Part shown: positions 109 through 7,866 of the stretch, one piece after another | How the letters are laid out: every line of letters starts with the position of its first letter | How positions within the stretch are numbered: position 1 is the first letter of the stretch | NCBI GenBank assembly: GCA_021838635.1 | Contig: JAKCDC010000009.1 | Location: forward strand, 1-64,000 | DNA length: 64,000 nt | Direction: 5' to 3' | DNA from: Pseudomonadota bacterium | Lineage (GTDB): Bacteria > Pseudomonadota > Gammaproteobacteria > Steroidobacterales > Steroidobacteraceae | Translations under genes and position numbers: made by a program | Notes under the pieces: generated by a model | What the model saw: the letters and a program-made list of their open reading frames with translations, nothing else | Told to the model about the DNA's origin: nothing | Databases searched by the model: none

Positions 109-525
109 ACGTCCGCGATTACCTGAAATGAATTTCGGCCGAGACCGCTCATCGCGCGGGTCCTGAGAACGCAATGAGCGGCACCGGTCTGGTGTGCCAC
201 CGGAGGTGTTCAGGATTCCGCATGGTGCGATGTCAAGCGCGCACGGCAGCTACCCACCGTATACCCCCCTGACTTTACGGACCCGCCCAGCCCACAGCGT
301 CCTTGGCGCGGCGTCGCCCGAGAGATTTCTCGGGATCCTTAACCAGCTCGTGCATGCGGAAATATCTACCGCGATTCTACGCCCCAACGTTTTCGCCGAA
401 GTGTATTCGCAGACTTCGCTTGACGGGGCTACCCCCCGAGAGGAAGCCAAATTGCCCCAACAGGTCGTTACCACCCGTAACACTTAGATACCGCATGTGC
501 CCAATGGTGAGCGGTCATTCGACCG

Positions 526-1950
526 CTATTCGGACCCGGTAGAGCCGCGACGCGGAATACCCATGCGTTGGCGGCGCTGCCACAGTGACTTACGACTGAT
601 TCCGAGACGGCGTGCCAGTTCGGACTCAGTGAGATGTTTTTGATGACGTAGCACGAAGTCCCGGAAGTAATCTTCGAGGTTCATATCGGATGGCGAGTGC
701 GCCGATACCGGCATCTGCCCCGCGGCCCGCGGCTGCAATCCAAGATGCTCAAGCTCGATAGTGCCGCTATCGCACAGAATCGCCGCGCGTTGCAGACAGT
801 TCGCCAGCTCACGAACATTGCCGGGCCAGCTGTACCGCCGCAGGAACGCAAGCGTCTGTTCATCAACCGCAAGCGTCCCGCGACCAAGTCGTGCGCTGAT
901 CTGCTGAAGCATCTGCGTCACCAGCAGGTCGATATCATCGCCCCGCTCGCGCAGCGGCGGAAGCCCGATCTCGAATACCCGCAGACGGTAATACAGGTCC
1001 TCACGGAAAGAACCTGCGCCGATCATTTGCACCAGATCTCGGTGGGTTGCCGCCAACACCCGTACGTCGACCCGGTAAGAACTTGAGGCGCCCACGGCAC
1101 GCACTTCGCCGTCTTGTAATGCACGCAGTAACCGTGCTTGTGCCGCAGGCGCCAGTTCACCGATCTCATCGAGAAACAACGTGCCGCCATGCGCGGCCTT
1201 GAATAGACCGGGCTTGCTGTGTGCCGCGCCAGTAAATGCCCCGCGCTCATGTCCGAACAGCTCCGACTCGATCAAGGCCTCAGGAATCGCGGCACAGTTG
1301 ATCGGCACGAACGGCCCTGCGCAGCGGAGGCTGCTCGCGTGCAGCGCGCGTGCAATCAGTTCCTTGCCGGTACCAGATTCCCCGAGGATCAATACCGTAG
1401 CGTCGGTCGCTGCCACTTGCCGCACGCTCTTGGCTACAGCGCGCATTGGTGCCGATCGCCCGACGATCCCGTCAATCGGCCATTCCCGAGCAAGATCCTG
1501 GGCCATCGCCCGGTTACAGCGTAGCAATTGCCCCTGATCGAGAAGCCGACGCACTCGAAGAAGTAGCTCTTCAAAGTCAAACGGTTTGGCAATGTAGTCG
1601 GCTGCGCCCCGCTTAACGCAATCGACGGCCGAGGAGATACTTGCGTAGCTGGTTGCAATCAGGACCGGAACCCCCTCTGCAGACTCCACCAATTCAACGC
1701 CCGGAGCATCCGGCAGACGCAGATCGGCGATCACCAAGTCGAAGCCGCAGGGGTTAAGGCGCTGTGCCTCCGCGACGCTGCCTGCGGCCGCCGTACGATA
1801 GCCCTCGCGCTCTAGGCGCTTGGCGATCTCACCGCAAATCAGCGGTTCATCTTCCACGATGAGTACCCGATACGGCGCCGAGCCCTCCTGCCGGATCTGT
1901 CTGGTGGGACGAATATCGCCGGTCCTCTGCGCGTCTTGCGGGACACTCAT
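526..1950 (-). CDS. cbrB: Sigma54-dependent NtrC-family response regulator, CbrB-like
   Basis: Receiver domain, AAA+ with GESGTGKE and ELFGHERGAFTGA, Fis-type HTH ending ARRLGISRKSLWQRRQRMGIPRR; 4-nt overlap with upstream kinase gene. Confidence 0.88.
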   Translation of the reverse strand: MSVPQDAQRTGDIRPTRQIRQEGSAPYRVLIVEDEPLICGEIAKRLEREGYRTAAAGSVAEAQRLNPCGFDLVIADLRLPDAPGVELVESAEGVPVLIATSYASISSAVDCVKRGAADYIAKPFDFEELLLRVRRLLDQGQLLRCNRAMAQDLAREWPIDGIVGRSAPMRAVAKSVRQVAATDATVLILGESGTGKELIARALHASSLRCAGPFVPINCAAIPEALIESELFGHERGAFTGAAHSKPGLFKAAHGGTLFLDEIGELAPAAQARLLRALQDGEVRAVGASSSYRVDVRVLAATHRDLVQMIGAGSFREDLYYRLRVFEIGLPPLRERGDDIDLLVTQMLQQISARLGRGTLAVDEQTLAFLRRYSWPGNVRELANCLQRAAILCDSGTIELEHLGLQPRAAGQMPVSAHSPSDMNLEDYFRDFVLRHQKHLTESELARRLGISRKSLWQRRQRMGIPRRGSTGSE

Positions 1951-4817
1951 GCCAGTTCTCCTACGCTCGCGTCAGGCAGGAACACACCCACTCGGGTGCC
2001 CGATCCTGGTTCACTCTCGATGTTTACGCGTCCGCCATGGTCGCGCACGATTCCGTACACGACCGACAGTCCGAGCCCCGTGCCGCGCCCAGGCGCCTTG
2101 GTGGTAAAGAACGGTTCGAACGCCCGCTCGCGTACTTCGGTTGGCATGCCGCAACCGTGATCCTGAACCTCTAGCGACACTCCGTCGCCATCAACTAGGA
2201 CTCGGACAGTGATTTCACTTCCCGGGGCAGAAGCGTCAATCGCATTAGTCAACAGATTAACCACCACTTGCACGATTTCCTGCCGCTTACCGACCACATA
2301 GACACTTTGCGGAACATCGCTCAAGATCTTCGGCTGTCGATCAGTGGGGCGCAATCGCGCGAGCCGGACTGCCTCATCGACGCAGATCGCCAGATCAAAT
2401 CGCTCGCTGCGCAGTTCGTGTTCGGCACCGGCGTGACTGAATGACAACAGCGTCGAGACGATTTGCTGTATACGGCGGATCTGCCCCAGGATTTCATCGA
2501 GAGCCGGTTGCGTCTGGGCATCTACGTCAAGTTTAAGGTTCTGCGTCAACGCGCTTATTCCGGTGAGAGGATTACCGATCTCGTGCGCCACACCTGCTGC
2601 GAGCGTGCCGATCGACGCCAGCCGCTCAGAATGAGCGAGCTCAGCCTCCAGCCGGCGCTGTTCGCTTAAGTCCTCAATCAGCACAATGTTGTCACCGTCA
2701 CGCTCAGGTCCTACGCGCGCCTTGTGCAGATTCAGCCAGCTCACTCGTCCGCTGGCGTTGATCTCGACGCGATAGACATGGGAATCCAGTACGGACAGAA
2801 AACTCGTCAGCAAGTCTGCCCATGGTGCCGGCAATTCCCCAATGCCCCGGCCCAGCACGCCGTTCTCTGTCAAACCGGTCAGTTCCACCAATCGCTGGTT
2901 CCACAATCGCACACGACCTTCGCGCGACACAGAGCACACGCCGACCGGCAATTCCAGCAACATCTGCCGATGCAGTCTGCGCAGATGATTGAGCTCAGCA
3001 GCCAGACCAGTGAGGCCACGCGGTGAGTGCTCCAGATACTCCTCAATCAATCGTCCACTGGGCTCACGCGTACCGAGCACCTGGTGCGCCAAATGTGGTC
3101 CCAGTAACCCGGAGAGATTACGCTCCAAATGCGCCTCCAGCGCGAGCAGTGCGTGCGGACTTGTTTCCTGCCGCTGCAGTCCGGACTCCGTGAGGGCTCG
3201 CTGCATTTCCCGTTCGGCATTCACTGGCCCCAGAGCAATGGCCAGCCGTCGCGCCAGTTGCCCGACACTGGGAACGTGTGGATCCTCCCGTAACAGCGGG
3301 ATACGCAGGCGGATCGTCTGATCCGCCAACAGCTCACGGACCCCTGGGCGCGTCGCAAGCGAGACCACTGCCAGCAGCCCCACATTAGTTGCAAGGGACC
3401 AGAACGTGAGTAGCGGCCAGTCGATAGTCGCTGCTTGTGGCACAAACCAGAGACGCACGCCGAGCAAAGGAAGCATCAGGCTGACGAACCATACCGTCAT
3501 GCCGCCGCATACGCCTGTAACGAATCCCGATCCCGTGACGCGCGGCCACCAGAGCAGCGCGGCCACACCGGGCACGAACTGCGTAACCGCGAGAAAGGAG
3601 ATCATGCCCATCTGCACCAGACCCTGGTTCTGGCGCATCACTACATAAGCCAGGTAACCCAGGCCGACCACTGAAACGAGCAATACACGTCGCCAACTGC
3701 GCAGCTGTCGATAAAGATCTCCCTCGCGCATCCGTCGCAGAGCGAGCGGCAGCATCAAATGGTTCAGGCACATTCCGCCGAGTGCTAGAGACTCAACGAT
3801 CAGCATGCCGCTCGCCGCCGATATGCCACCGACGTAAGTCAACAGGGTAAGTGCGTGGTTACCGTAGTGCTGTGCAAGTGACAACACAAAATAGTCCGGA
3901 GGCGTTGGACTTTCGGCTTTTATGCCGGCCCATAGGATGAGTGGGATCGGTAGATTGAGAAGCAGCAGGTACATAGGGTAAAGCCACGAGGCGGTACGCA
4001 AACCGCCAGGACTATTATTTTCACAAAACAGCATATGAAAGCAGCGCGGCAGCACAAACGCTGCGCACGCCGAAAGCAGCAGAAGCGTGACCCACGTGCC
4101 ACCGCCAACCGGGGCGTACATAGCTGGCAGCGTGTGCGGATTTTCGGCAAGCCATCTGCCGATACCTGACCACCCACCGAAAATTGTGACTAGGACGAAC
4201 ACACCCGCGACAAGCAACGCAACCAGCTTTACCATCGACTCGAACGCGATGGCCACGACCAGTCCCTCGTGGCGCGCACGCGGCTTTAAGTGACGGGCAC
4301 CGAAGGCCATCGCGAACAGTGAAATCACGGCACAAAACGCGGCGGCCATGATTGGGGAACTCACCCTGGCGTGTTGCCCGGTGAGTACCTCAATCGAACT
4401 GATCACCGCGCGGATCTGAAGCGCCATGTAGGGCAGCAGTCCCACGAGCATGAACACTGTGACCAGTGGGCCGGTAAATCGATTGGCATAGCGGAACGCG
4501 AGCAGATCGGCGAGTGACTGCAGTTCCCGATCACGGACTACCCGCAGCACTGGGGCCAGCAGCACCGGCGCCGCGAGAAACGCCAGTGTCGCGCCAAGGT
4601 AAACGGTCAGGAAAAGAAAGCCGCTTCGTGCGGCGAAGCCAACGCTACCGTAATAGGTCCACGTCGTTGCATAAACTCCCAGCGACAACGACAGCACGGC
4701 CGGATGCCGAACTACGCGTGCCGGTATCGCGCCTCGCTCGGTGAGCCACGCCACCAGGAATAGCAACCCGAGATAAGCGAGTGCTGTGAGGAATAATGTC
4801 CCTAGATCAATCGGCAT
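1947..4817 (-). CDS. cbrA: Sodium:solute symporter-type sensor histidine kinase, CbrA-like
   Basis: N-terminal multi-TM SSS region, then PAS-like region, HisKA (GVAHEIGNPLTGI) and HATPase (GRGTGLGLSVVYGIV). Confidence 0.88.
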   Translation of the reverse strand: MPIDLGTLFLTALAYLGLLFLVAWLTERGAIPARVVRHPAVLSLSLGVYATTWTYYGSVGFAARSGFLFLTVYLGATLAFLAAPVLLAPVLRVVRDRELQSLADLLAFRYANRFTGPLVTVFMLVGLLPYMALQIRAVISSIEVLTGQHARVSSPIMAAAFCAVISLFAMAFGARHLKPRARHEGLVVAIAFESMVKLVALLVAGVFVLVTIFGGWSGIGRWLAENPHTLPAMYAPVGGGTWVTLLLLSACAAFVLPRCFHMLFCENNSPGGLRTASWLYPMYLLLLNLPIPLILWAGIKAESPTPPDYFVLSLAQHYGNHALTLLTYVGGISAASGMLIVESLALGGMCLNHLMLPLALRRMREGDLYRQLRSWRRVLLVSVVGLGYLAYVVMRQNQGLVQMGMISFLAVTQFVPGVAALLWWPRVTGSGFVTGVCGGMTVWFVSLMLPLLGVRLWFVPQAATIDWPLLTFWSLATNVGLLAVVSLATRPGVRELLADQTIRLRIPLLREDPHVPSVGQLARRLAIALGPVNAEREMQRALTESGLQRQETSPHALLALEAHLERNLSGLLGPHLAHQVLGTREPSGRLIEEYLEHSPRGLTGLAAELNHLRRLHRQMLLELPVGVCSVSREGRVRLWNQRLVELTGLTENGVLGRGIGELPAPWADLLTSFLSVLDSHVYRVEINASGRVSWLNLHKARVGPERDGDNIVLIEDLSEQRRLEAELAHSERLASIGTLAAGVAHEIGNPLTGISALTQNLKLDVDAQTQPALDEILGQIRRIQQIVSTLLSFSHAGAEHELRSERFDLAICVDEAVRLARLRPTDRQPKILSDVPQSVYVVGKRQEIVQVVVNLLTNAIDASAPGSEITVRVLVDGDGVSLEVQDHGCGMPTEVRERAFEPFFTTKAPGRGTGLGLSVVYGIVRDHGGRVNIESEPGSGTRVGVFLPDASVGELA

Positions 4818-5019
4818 GACTCCGCCGATGCGCCAACCACGCGCCGGAGCAGATCAGCACGAACCAAAGCAGGTAAGGCGACCACCAGGATCTCATTGGG
4901 GACGCCCAAATCACCGCCGCCGGACTCACCAGCAGCACAATAGCTGTTGCGGTAAGCACACCTGCCTCGGCTTCGGCGTTGCGCTGTGGAGCGACGTCGC
5001 CGCCTTTCTTTCCAACCAT
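4807..5019 (-). CDS. Small membrane protein, candidate CbrX-like, overlapping the kinase start
   Basis: 70 aa with two hydrophobic stretches; stop overlaps the kinase start codon region by 11 nt. Confidence 0.6.
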   Translation of the reverse strand: MVGKKGGDVAPQRNAEAEAGVLTATAIVLLVSPAAVIWASPMRSWWSPYLLWFVLICSGAWLAHRRSHAD

Positions 5020-5114
5020 ACCCCCCCCAGACGGGTTGTTACCGAGAGTAGCACGCGGTTGCGCCTGGTAGCGAGGGAGGCTTCACCGTCAACGGGTCAA
5101 CATCGGCGTCCATT

Positions 5115-5128
5115 TACAACTAGTTGTA
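5115..5128. promoter_or_regulatory. 14-bp perfect palindrome TACAACTAGTTGTA, candidate activator site
   Basis: Perfect self-complementarity, upstream of the predicted sigma54 promoter. Confidence 0.4.
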
Positions 5129-5166
5129 TTAATTATGTTTTTTTTCGTGTCCGTCGGCGTTCACAT

Positions 5167-5182
5167 TGGCAAACAGATTGCA
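5167..5182 (+). promoter_or_regulatory. Predicted sigma54 -24/-12 promoter TGGCAAACAGATTGCA
   Basis: GG and GC elements separated by exactly 10 nt, TGGCA...TTGCA; upstream of the 5288 ORF and next to an NtrC-type regulator. Confidence 0.65.
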
Positions 5183-5287
5183 TTCACCACCGCCGGGGGG
5201 AGATGCGTGACGGATCGGTCGGCGTCGCCCTGCAAATAACTGACAACTATCAATATTTACCAGTCTTAGTGCAGTGGAGAACAACTG

Positions 5288-6181
5288 ATGCGAACGAAAC
5301 CGTTGCTATCGAGATACAGAGTGCTGGTAGCCCCGCTAGCCGCGCTGTCAATGATCGCCGCCACCGTAGTCGCAACACCCGCCTTGGCCGCCAATCCGCC
5401 AATTGCGATCGTGGGCCCCGCGGAGTGGGATCTGCCGACCGTTCCATCGGCCAATGTATTCATGCAAACCGGAGTATTCCAGGACAGCACAAATACCTAT
5501 AACGCCTCTGGACAGGAAGTATCCACCGCCAGCAGCCAGACCTATGAGGGCATCTCTCGCTGGGCCCACTTGTTCAGCTTCAAGAGCACGCCCAACACCG
5601 GTTTCTTTTGGGAATACCTACAGCCGGAAGTTTATGTGCAACTGCCAAACAATCAAAGTGCATCTGGGCTTGGTGACCCGATGTTCGACTTTGGCGTCTA
5701 TCGCAACCCTACAAAGTCGCTCACAATCGGCGTGCAGCAGATCCTGTCGATTCCGATTGGACAGCAGCAAGTGACCAACCATGCATGGATCTACCTGCCC
5801 AGCATCATTCTCGACTGGCATCCTACCAGCGGTGCTGCCAAGAACTTTGCGCTCGACGGGACCTTCGGCGCCGGTGTATTTTCCGGCTTACGTGGCGTCA
5901 CCGGAGCCGCGGCCGGACATGCGCCGGGTGCGCTGTACTATGCAGAGACCTCGGTGCGCTACCAGATGAATTCCTGGCTCGCTCCGTTCGTGCAGAACGT
6001 ATACCAGACCGAGAGCTCCACGAATTTTTTTCAAAGCAATCATGAGGACGACATCGGTGCGGGCCTTAAAATTAACTTTACCGGCGCGCGGTGGCTGTCA
6101 ATCTGGTATCTCACCGGCGCTTCGGGTGCGAACACGGGAAAGACAAATGCTCTTTATTTCCGCTTCGTAAACATCTTCTAA
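5288..6181 (+). CDS. Putative outer-membrane beta-barrel protein
   Basis: Signal peptide ending ATPALAA, alternating aromatic strands, C-terminal ...YFRFVNIF. Confidence 0.7.
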   Translation: MRTKPLLSRYRVLVAPLAALSMIAATVVATPALAANPPIAIVGPAEWDLPTVPSANVFMQTGVFQDSTNTYNASGQEVSTASSQTYEGISRWAHLFSFKSTPNTGFFWEYLQPEVYVQLPNNQSASGLGDPMFDFGVYRNPTKSLTIGVQQILSIPIGQQQVTNHAWIYLPSIILDWHPTSGAAKNFALDGTFGAGVFSGLRGVTGAAAGHAPGALYYAETSVRYQMNSWLAPFVQNVYQTESSTNFFQSNHEDDIGAGLKINFTGARWLSIWYLTGASGANTGKTNALYFRFVNIF

Positions 6182-6225
6182 TTAATTCTCGTCACATAGA
6201 CCACAGACAACCGGTGGGGAATACC

Positions 6226-6801
6226 ATGACTGATGAAGTAAAGCTGGGCAATCCAGCCCCTTTGGGATTAATTGCGTTCGGCCTGACTACGGTAATTCTC
6301 AGTTTGATAAACGCTGGATTGCTGCCCGCGGCAGGAATGGCGGTCGTACTACCACTCGCTTTCGCCTTCGGGGGGCTGACGCAGTTCGTCGCTGGATTAC
6401 TTGAATTTCGTACCGGTAATACGTTCGGCATGGTGGCGTTTCTGAGTTACGGCGCGTTCTGGATATGGTTCTCGCTGCTCATTGTGCTCGGGTCACATGG
6501 CGTACTCGATCTGAAGGACGCGGGATCCACCATCGGCGTGACGCTACTTGGTTGGGGCGTATTCACGCTGTATATGTGGGTCAGCACGTTCCGACTCAAC
6601 AAAGCGCTGTGGTGGGTATTTTTGACCTTATGGCTTGCGTTCTTCTTGCTGGGCCTCGGTGCGCTCGGCTTCCCAAGACTCACCGTGGCCGGTGGCTGGG
6701 TGGGCTTGGTCTGTGGCCTGCTCGCCATGTACACTAGCTTCGCCACTGTGACCAACGCGACTTTTGGCACCTCGACACTGCCCGTCGGTGCGCCAAAGTA
6801 A
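6226..6801 (+). CDS. satP: Acetate uptake transporter, GPR1/FUN34/YaaH (SatP) family
   Basis: NPAPLGLIAFGLTTVILSLINAG and multi-TM GGLTQFVAGLLEFRTGNTFG...FLSYGAFW; internal start at 6226 preferred over 6091. Confidence 0.88.
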   Translation: MTDEVKLGNPAPLGLIAFGLTTVILSLINAGLLPAAGMAVVLPLAFAFGGLTQFVAGLLEFRTGNTFGMVAFLSYGAFWIWFSLLIVLGSHGVLDLKDAGSTIGVTLLGWGVFTLYMWVSTFRLNKALWWVFLTLWLAFFLLGLGALGFPRLTVAGGWVGLVCGLLAMYTSFATVTNATFGTSTLPVGAPK

Positions 6802-7131
6802 CTTTTGAGTTGACACGTAACGTACGCGGGGCGAACCTCGTCGGTTCACCAAAGATGACCGACGGGGTTCTTCCTTTGGGGCTTATCGAAGCGCTAGTCG
6901 GTGCCGCTCTGAATCCAAGACTTAACATGATCCATGGACAGCGGCGCCCCACTCGCTTCAGTCTTAGAAATCTCGACGTACCAGTCCGTCACCGCTTCGA
7001 TTGCGGACGGAGCGGGGCGACCTCCCTGAAGTGACCTGACCCGGAACGCCCGCCGTCCCAATTTCGGCCTCACCCGATCAGACGCTCGGAGCGCGGCGGA
7101 GTATGCGGCAAGCCGACGCGGTCACCACGCA

Positions 7132-7866
7132 CTACGATGAGTGACGAGCGACCATCAGTTTCAATATCACGCTCAAGAGTTCGCCTTGACTCGCTGGCAA
7201 TCTGACGCGGACGATAATTACCCCCGGCCATGCCTTAGGCGGAACAAGCATAACCATGCCACCGCTCGACTGAGCGACCGCAGACAATTTCCCTCCTGCG
7301 CCGAAGGCAGTCCTGCTTGCCGAGGCCGTGAATTCCAGCAGCGTTGGACTCACCCGGTGAAATATCTTCTTGTCGATGAAGGGTCGACTGTAATTCTTCA
7401 GCGGAAAATAATCTCCCTTCTCGTCCGACTTTACCCATTTTACGAATGCTGTATCTTGTTTTGGAAACAGCTGCGATATCAATTGCTCCGCAGGTATCAT
7501 TCCAGATGTGCCCCCATCTATGGACGTCACCGTCACAGCTGGCCCATTAATTTTTCTACCGTATGACGGCGACACAGCATGCGGCGCGACAACTAATGTA
7601 ATTTCCCCAGATCCGTACCACTCTCTGCACTGCCACCCTACTGGAGCAAATACACCAACTCCTTCAGACGCTTTGTAGTATGCGAGCGAGGCACTCAGTC
7701 CTGCCCCGGGTATGAATACGGACCCGCTATGAATGGGAGGCGCCAGTGGACCGAAGGTCCCATTCGCGGGGCAACTCACAAAGTCGACGGTACCTGCCTG
7801 CGCGAGAGTCCCTGCACAGGTGAGCATAAGAACCGAAAACCACATGAGAGTATTACTCTTGCGCAT
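7132..7866 (-). CDS. Secreted protein of unknown function
   Basis: 244 aa with signal peptide ...LTCAGTLAQAG. Confidence 0.65.
   Translation of the reverse strand: MRKSNTLMWFSVLMLTCAGTLAQAGTVDFVSCPANGTFGPLAPPIHSGSVFIPGAGLSASLAYYKASEGVGVFAPVGWQCREWYGSGEITLVVAPHAVSPSYGRKINGPAVTVTSIDGGTSGMIPAEQLISQLFPKQDTAFVKWVKSDEKGDYFPLKNYSRPFIDKKIFHRVSPTLLEFTASASRTAFGAGGKLSAVAQSSGGMVMLVPPKAWPGVIIVRVRLPASQGELLSVILKLMVARHSS

Follow-up and report, generated by a model that had tools for sequence, protein, structure and literature searches.

Introduction

The closest described counterpart of the locus analyzed here is the CbrAB two-component system of Pseudomonas, which reviews treat as unique to the Pseudomonadaceae (PMC8871633). 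Reviews also regard its binding sites as non-palindromic and lacking a usable consensus. Its small cbrX ORF overlaps cbrA in a cbrX-cbrA-cbrB arrangement (PMC6591292). CbrB recognizes the subsites TGTTAC (forward) and GTAACA (reverse) in combination with a GG-N10-GC promoter, and mutating these subsites at crcZ, crcY and PP2810 showed that they contribute in vivo; the published sites are non-palindromic and their spacing varies (PMC6296734). Two other systems resemble the locus in kinase and target. CrbS/CrbR (MxtR/ErdR) likewise uses an SLC5-STAC kinase to control acs and an acetate transporter, but there the kinase, CrbS, has both a REC domain and an S-helix, and CrbR is a LuxR-family regulator that binds the ACTU motif (PMC5715377, PMC8402216), whereas the regulator here is a sigma54 activator. 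In pyruvate uptake by Sinorhizobium fredii, the SLC5/STAC kinase system RpuS/RpuR controls a monocarboxylate transporter gene (PMC9100948); that system is alphaproteobacterial, its target is mctP and we liken it to the present one by kinase and target only.

Here we describe a divergent intergenic region in a 64-kb stretch of gammaproteobacterial DNA (the window). The locus shares with Pseudomonas CbrAB the order of cbrX, cbrA and cbrB with the first two overlapping, an SLC5-STAC-PAS kinase, an NtrC-type response regulator with a near-identical helix-turn-helix (HTH), the TGTTAC/GTAACA half-sites, the sigma54 GG-N10-GC promoter and, downstream of cbrB in the window's relatives, CbrB half-sites together with a sigma54 promoter. 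It differs in having a strict tandem 17-bp dyad (N5) where Pseudomonas has three non-palindromic subsites 20-25 bp apart, in a cbrB-side promoter that precedes acs in near relatives with no CrcZ found, in divergent targets that comprise an outer-membrane-type protein (OMP) and the acetate transporter SatP, and in lying outside the Pseudomonadaceae with a role that appears local, judged by two good dyads in the genome, and not global. Taken together, the sequence evidence gives us considerable confidence that the sigma54 promoter of OMP-satP is switched by a CbrAB-type system through this dyad.

The locus and its divergent genes

Table 1. Features of the locus, in window coordinates.
Feature	Position	Strand	Basis
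Second locus dyad CGTTAC-CACCC-GTAACA, just past the response regulator stop	466..482	.	1 mismatch; relatives have a dyad pair, sigma54 promoter and acs
CbrB-type sigma54 activator (REC, AAA+ with GAFTGA, HTH)	526..1950	-	Pfam domains, HTH comparison
CbrA-type sensor kinase, 956 aa (SLC5+STAC, PAS, HisKA, HATPase; no REC)	1947..4817	-	Pfam domains, tree, structure match
Small membrane ORF, 70 aa, in cbrX position	4807..5019	-	Overlaps kinase start by 11 nt; PMC6591292 arrangement
CbrB-type dyad TGTTAC-CGAGA-GTAGCA, proposed upstream activating sequence	5037..5053	.	1 mismatch to TGTTAC-N5-GTAACA; conserved in all 5 loci
Degenerate second dyad GGTTGC-GCCTG-GTAGCG, spaced 20 bp from the first	5057..5073	.	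Better-kept second copies in L096, L230
Sigma54 -24/-12 promoter TGGCAAACAGATTGCA, predicted for OMP-satP	5167..5182	+	Window and shuffle counts; blocks invariant in 4 orthologous loci; also in L096
Predicted transcription start	5193..5193	+	Arithmetic: 12 nt past the C of the -12 GC
Predicted 95-nt 5' leader with GGAG ribosome-binding site at its end	5193..5287	+	Sequence
Outer-membrane-type protein of 297 aa with signal peptide and C-terminal F	5288..6181	+	Sequence
satP, acetate uptake transporter	6226..6801	+	PF01184; NCBIfam AceTr_1

SatP scores far above the curated cut-offs of its families (PF01184, 148 bits against 25; NF038013, 158 against 50), and it is on this family assignment that its predicted transport of acetate rests. 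The OMP has no Pfam or NCBIfam match, and an AF2 model made with four orthologs reached a pLDDT of 32, too low to be of use. Its family is 54% identical in three relatives with an invariant C-terminal RFVNIF, and each of the four genus-level loci linked to cbr has it together with satP.

The initial annotation had noted a sigma54 activator gene adjacent to the promoter. The gene is near, but it belongs to a divergent operon in which a kinase gene and a small ORF separate it from the promoter. The small ORF is cbrX-like by arrangement and has homologs in all five satP loci. The kinase has the domain set of CbrA, and its residues 4-585 match PDB entry 10ed ('histidine kinase', 606 aa) at E 1.2e-146, a chain that the kinase of L210, a locus in which Rfam CrcZ follows cbrB, matches nearly throughout. 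The Pfam SSF model matched none of the 36 kinase members, the CrcZ-linked one included, so its absence from the window kinase is uninformative. Over their full lengths the window and L210 pairs are 53% (regulator) and 42% (kinase) identical, and the HTH of the NtrC-type regulator is near-identical to that of the CrcZ-linked CbrB (LGISRKSLWQRRQRMGIPRR versus LGISRKCLWERRQRLGIPRR). Domain order, the kinase tree (below), the match to a solved structure and the near-identical HTH identify the divergent genes as cbrX, cbrA and cbrB of such a system. About 38 full-length relatives from many families were present in 369 sampled gammaproteobacterial genomes, and in the relatives examined an NtrC-type regulator sits beside the kinase wherever the contig reaches far enough.

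A candidate sigma54 promoter

The consensus-like sigma54 promoter called upstream of OMP-satP in the initial annotation was borne out. Its GG (5168-5169) and GC (5180-5181) lie ten bases apart on the plus strand in TGGC and TTGCW context, it is the sole exact match in the window to TGGCNNNNNNNTTGCW (TGGC-N7-TTGCW), and the genome encodes one copy of rpoN (PF04552, E 7e-67). The -24 element reads TGGCAAA, not TGGCACG. The accompanying statement that this is the only exact GG-N10-GC in the intergenic region needs amending, since there is a second at 5093 (CGGGTCAACATCGGCG), although that one lacks the other consensus bases. The arithmetic behind the predicted start and its leader of about 95 nt is correct.

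When the 268-bp intergenic region was shuffled by dinucleotides, 4 of 4,000 trials gave an exact plus-strand site. With up to one mismatch the window holds 35 matches where 31 are expected, which makes the degenerate pattern uninformative when taken alone. Genome-wide promoter and dyad counts were pattern searches with reversed controls; for the exact promoter pattern they gave 62 matches against 38, which places about one third of genomic matches above chance and makes the match at 5167-5182, by itself, suggestive only.

The upstream dyad

Four loci have the whole arrangement: the window, L061 (= L071), L062 (= L089) and L069. A fifth, more distant locus (L096, from a Mizugakiibacter MAG) has satP directly divergent and no OMP. 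In the alignment of the four intergenic regions, positions 5037-5073 form a conserved island separate from the promoter, with 28 of 37 columns (76%) invariant. Across the four loci the island reads TGTTAC-N5-GTARCA followed by a weaker copy 20 bp later; the second copy in the window has four mismatches. The half-site is identical to the published CbrB subsite, but the geometry, a dyad with N5 spacing, is different. In the five loci the first dyad lies 130, 134, 134, 134 and 121 bp from the promoter, and the corresponding distances in L074/L230 are 136 and 123 bp, so that a conserved dyad sits 121-136 bp upstream in six loci, within the 80-200 bp range of an enhancer-like site. IHF assists CbrB in P. 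putida; between the dyad and the promoter, the best matches to an IHF site were no better than those in shuffles.

The N5 spacing recurs across CbrA-type loci. A dyad with this spacing is found upstream of cbrX-cbrA in 29 of 39 loci with up to two mismatches (23 with up to one), compared with at most four loci for each of the other half-site spacings from 0 to 19. Only two dyads with up to one mismatch occur in the 3.47-Mb genome, at 466-482 and 5037-5053, both flanking the cbr locus, whereas dyads with up to two mismatches number 17 per strand against 30 in the reversed control. The motif is therefore local and not the mark of a genome-wide regulon.

Association of satP with CbrA

A promoter scan that covered 29 satP loci turned up one further case. 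In L074 a dyad and a sigma54 site lie upstream of satP with no cbr gene within 6 kb; in that genome (G430, L074/L230) cbrXAB is on the satP contig about 9 kb away. A CbrA relative (57-75% identity) is present in 3 of 23 satP genomes (G426, G430 and G448), and these are exactly the genomes in which satP or its operon is preceded by the dyad and a sigma54 site, with CbrA in none of the other 20; the Fisher p of 5.6e-4 is only indicative, because the 23 genomes are mostly incomplete drafts of varying completeness and are related.

In an alternative model the sigma54 promoter works with some other enhancer-binding protein, and the dyad at 5037 is there for cbrXAB autoregulation alone. The dyad is 18 bp from the cbrX start, and many loci that have no divergent sigma54 promoter keep a dyad next to cbrX, which means that its conservation reflects, in part, another role; the genome also has sigma54 sites with different dyads (TGTTCC-N5-GGAACA and TGTTGC-N5-GCAACA, C64:6881-6920). 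However, in L074/L230 satP has moved about 9 kb from cbrXA and has its own dyad pair and sigma54 site at the same spacing (136 bp) while cbrX has a separate dyad pair. This speaks for a role of the pair at satP beyond autoregulation. In addition, CbrA accompanies the promoter architecture in three of three genomes against none of 20, and the intergenic alignment contains no other conserved dyad. We therefore regard a different activator as improbable and favor a model in which CbrB acts on OMP-satP through the dyad, which likely also autoregulates cbrXAB, as its place just upstream of cbrX, including in loci without a divergent sigma54 promoter, suggests.

Conservation of the promoter

The same alignment sets the promoter apart from its surroundings. 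The -24 block (5167-5173) is invariant at 7 of 7 columns and the -12 block (5178-5183) at 6 of 6, whereas identity is 24% in the stretch from enhancer to promoter and 33% in the leader. In L096 the promoter is TGGCACAAGACTTGCT, taken directly from the sequence since MAFFT misplaced it. That the 16-mer is a chance match and OMP-satP is transcribed from a sigma70-type promoter would be compatible with the genomic count, which implies that many exact matches are fortuitous, but 13 of 13 invariant block columns beside spacers of 24-33% identity, the near-constant dyad spacing and the independent occurrence of the site in L096 and L074 make this very improbable, and no sigma70-like promoter was found in 4700-7200. 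The proposed role of the site as sigma54 promoter of OMP-satP is thus supported by sequence comparison, through blocks kept in four loci and present in a satP-only fifth, a near-fixed dyad distance and co-occurrence with CbrA, and it is very likely that 5167-5182 marks a genuine, regulated start site of the OMP and acetate transporter pair. The enhancer, the activator family (CbrB) and the probable acetate regulon were absent from the original promoter call.

Finally, a CrbS/CrbR-type acetate switch with a LuxR-type regulator acting with sigma70 would share the SLC5-STAC kinase and acetate-gene targets (acs, acetate transporter; PMC5715377) but is refuted by domain content and has a negligible probability, as the regulator belongs to the NtrC type and contains a sigma54-activation domain, and the kinase lacks a REC at its C-terminus. 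In the kinase tree a 100/100 branch of 2.65 changes per column divides it from the order's hybrid SLC5 kinases; row OUTL037, which came from a wrong-frame ORF and had a very long branch, was left out.

The cbrB-side promoter

Some CbrA-type loci have a second candidate control region downstream of cbrB. A dyad is present there in 15 of 38 loci, and a strong sigma54 site in 12 of these 15 against 2 of the 23 without a dyad (Fisher p = 1.2e-5), the two exceptions being the crcZ-type loci L210 and L218. Between cbrB and the next gene, two dyads and the sigma54 site TGGCAyTsCTCTTGCA occur in L061 (378-608), L062 (1480-1700) and L069 (64-276, minus strand), and the position of the cbrB-acs promoter in L061 and L062 is that of crcZ in Pseudomonas. 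The gene that follows is acs in L061, L062 and L230, with ACAS_N and AMP-binding domains confirmed for L062. G430 has both promoters: a cbrB-side one with two dyads and TGGCACCGGCCTTGCA, then acs, and a divergent cbrXAB one with two dyads and TGGCACCCGGTTTGCT, facing an MFS transporter and a 511-aa porin-like protein that matches no Pfam model. Among the more distant members, the genes that come first encode CBS/DUF294 proteins and sodium:solute symporters, symporter-TPR-Acs, Acs-symporter or a branched-chain-type ABC transporter, assigned with Pfam for representatives from L182 and L190 and by eye from sequence for the remainder.

The window retains only part of this arrangement. Past the 466-482 dyad, the sigma54 promoter and acs of relatives are absent from positions 1-525 and the sequence is unrelated, so that the cbrB-side region is probably a broken second promoter. 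An ORF end of 35 aa at the contig edge (1-108) has no Pfam match and resembles a transposase tail. The assembly has no orthologous acs, only a 42% paralogue (C93:179774). No Rfam CrcZ match was found in the window or genome; control genomes also returned none in the genome-wide search, and that CrcZ is findable is shown by L210, where the same library detects it. A CrcZ/CrcY sRNA target acting via Hfq/Crc is thus not seen here. CrcZ is a target and not a component of the Pseudomonas system, but its absence keeps the two from being called the same regulon. Downstream of cbrB in L218 (G423), fourteen copies of the CA-motif-like AANAANAA follow the sigma54 site, in the manner of a CrcZ-type sRNA, and score below the Rfam CrcZ threshold; this could be a divergent CrcZ.

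Discussion

We envision a scenario in which the SLC5 domain of the CbrA-type kinase detects a substrate or the carbon status and the kinase, by homology, phosphorylates the CbrB-type regulator. CbrB would then bind the tandem dyad at 5037-5073, as half-site identity, the conserved HTH and the phylogenetic footprint suggest, and loop to RpoN-holoenzyme at the promoter, about 130 bp away, where its AAA+ domain would open the promoter and induce the OMP and SatP for acetate uptake. Acetate, we infer, is the relevant nutrient. The switch probably governs acetate assimilation, given that the dyad-sigma54 arrangement downstream of cbrB in relatives also precedes acs. The presence of only two good dyads in the genome argues for a local role and against a global carbon-limitation response.

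Neither sigma54 promoters nor CbrAB are new in themselves. Within the literature searched, from which subscription papers were mostly absent, the palindromic form of the site, CbrAB beyond the Pseudomonadaceae and the direct acetate-gene targets, including satP, in place of CrcZ are new. We lean slightly toward the idea that CbrAB is a sigma54 switch widespread in gammaproteobacteria. Its older form would use a strict tandem palindrome to activate directly the genes for acetate/carboxylate uptake and activation (satP, acs, SSS symporters), with the scattered half-sites and CrcZ output of Pseudomonas representing a derived rewiring of the promoter downstream of cbrB. An origin for the Pseudomonas CrcZ circuit is thereby suggested, namely the sigma54 promoter that follows cbrB and in other loci lies ahead of acs or symporter genes. 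A 17-bp palindromic consensus readable across dozens of families would make the CbrB regulon predictable from sequence, and what was a lone promoter call in the window becomes a testable acetate-uptake switch.

Two further observations concern other sigma54 promoters. In two CbrAB-type loci, at 9014-9530 in L212 and downstream of the response regulator in L196, a dyad-sigma54 promoter precedes a branched-chain/urea-type ABC substrate-binding gene, not acetate genes. In L022 (G000:C64:6881-6986), the perfect palindromes noted above are followed by the sigma54 site TGGCATGTGCCTTGCA ahead of an aldehyde-dehydrogenase-like gene; this enhancer differs from the TGTTAC dyad and is perhaps, we assume, of the AcoR type.
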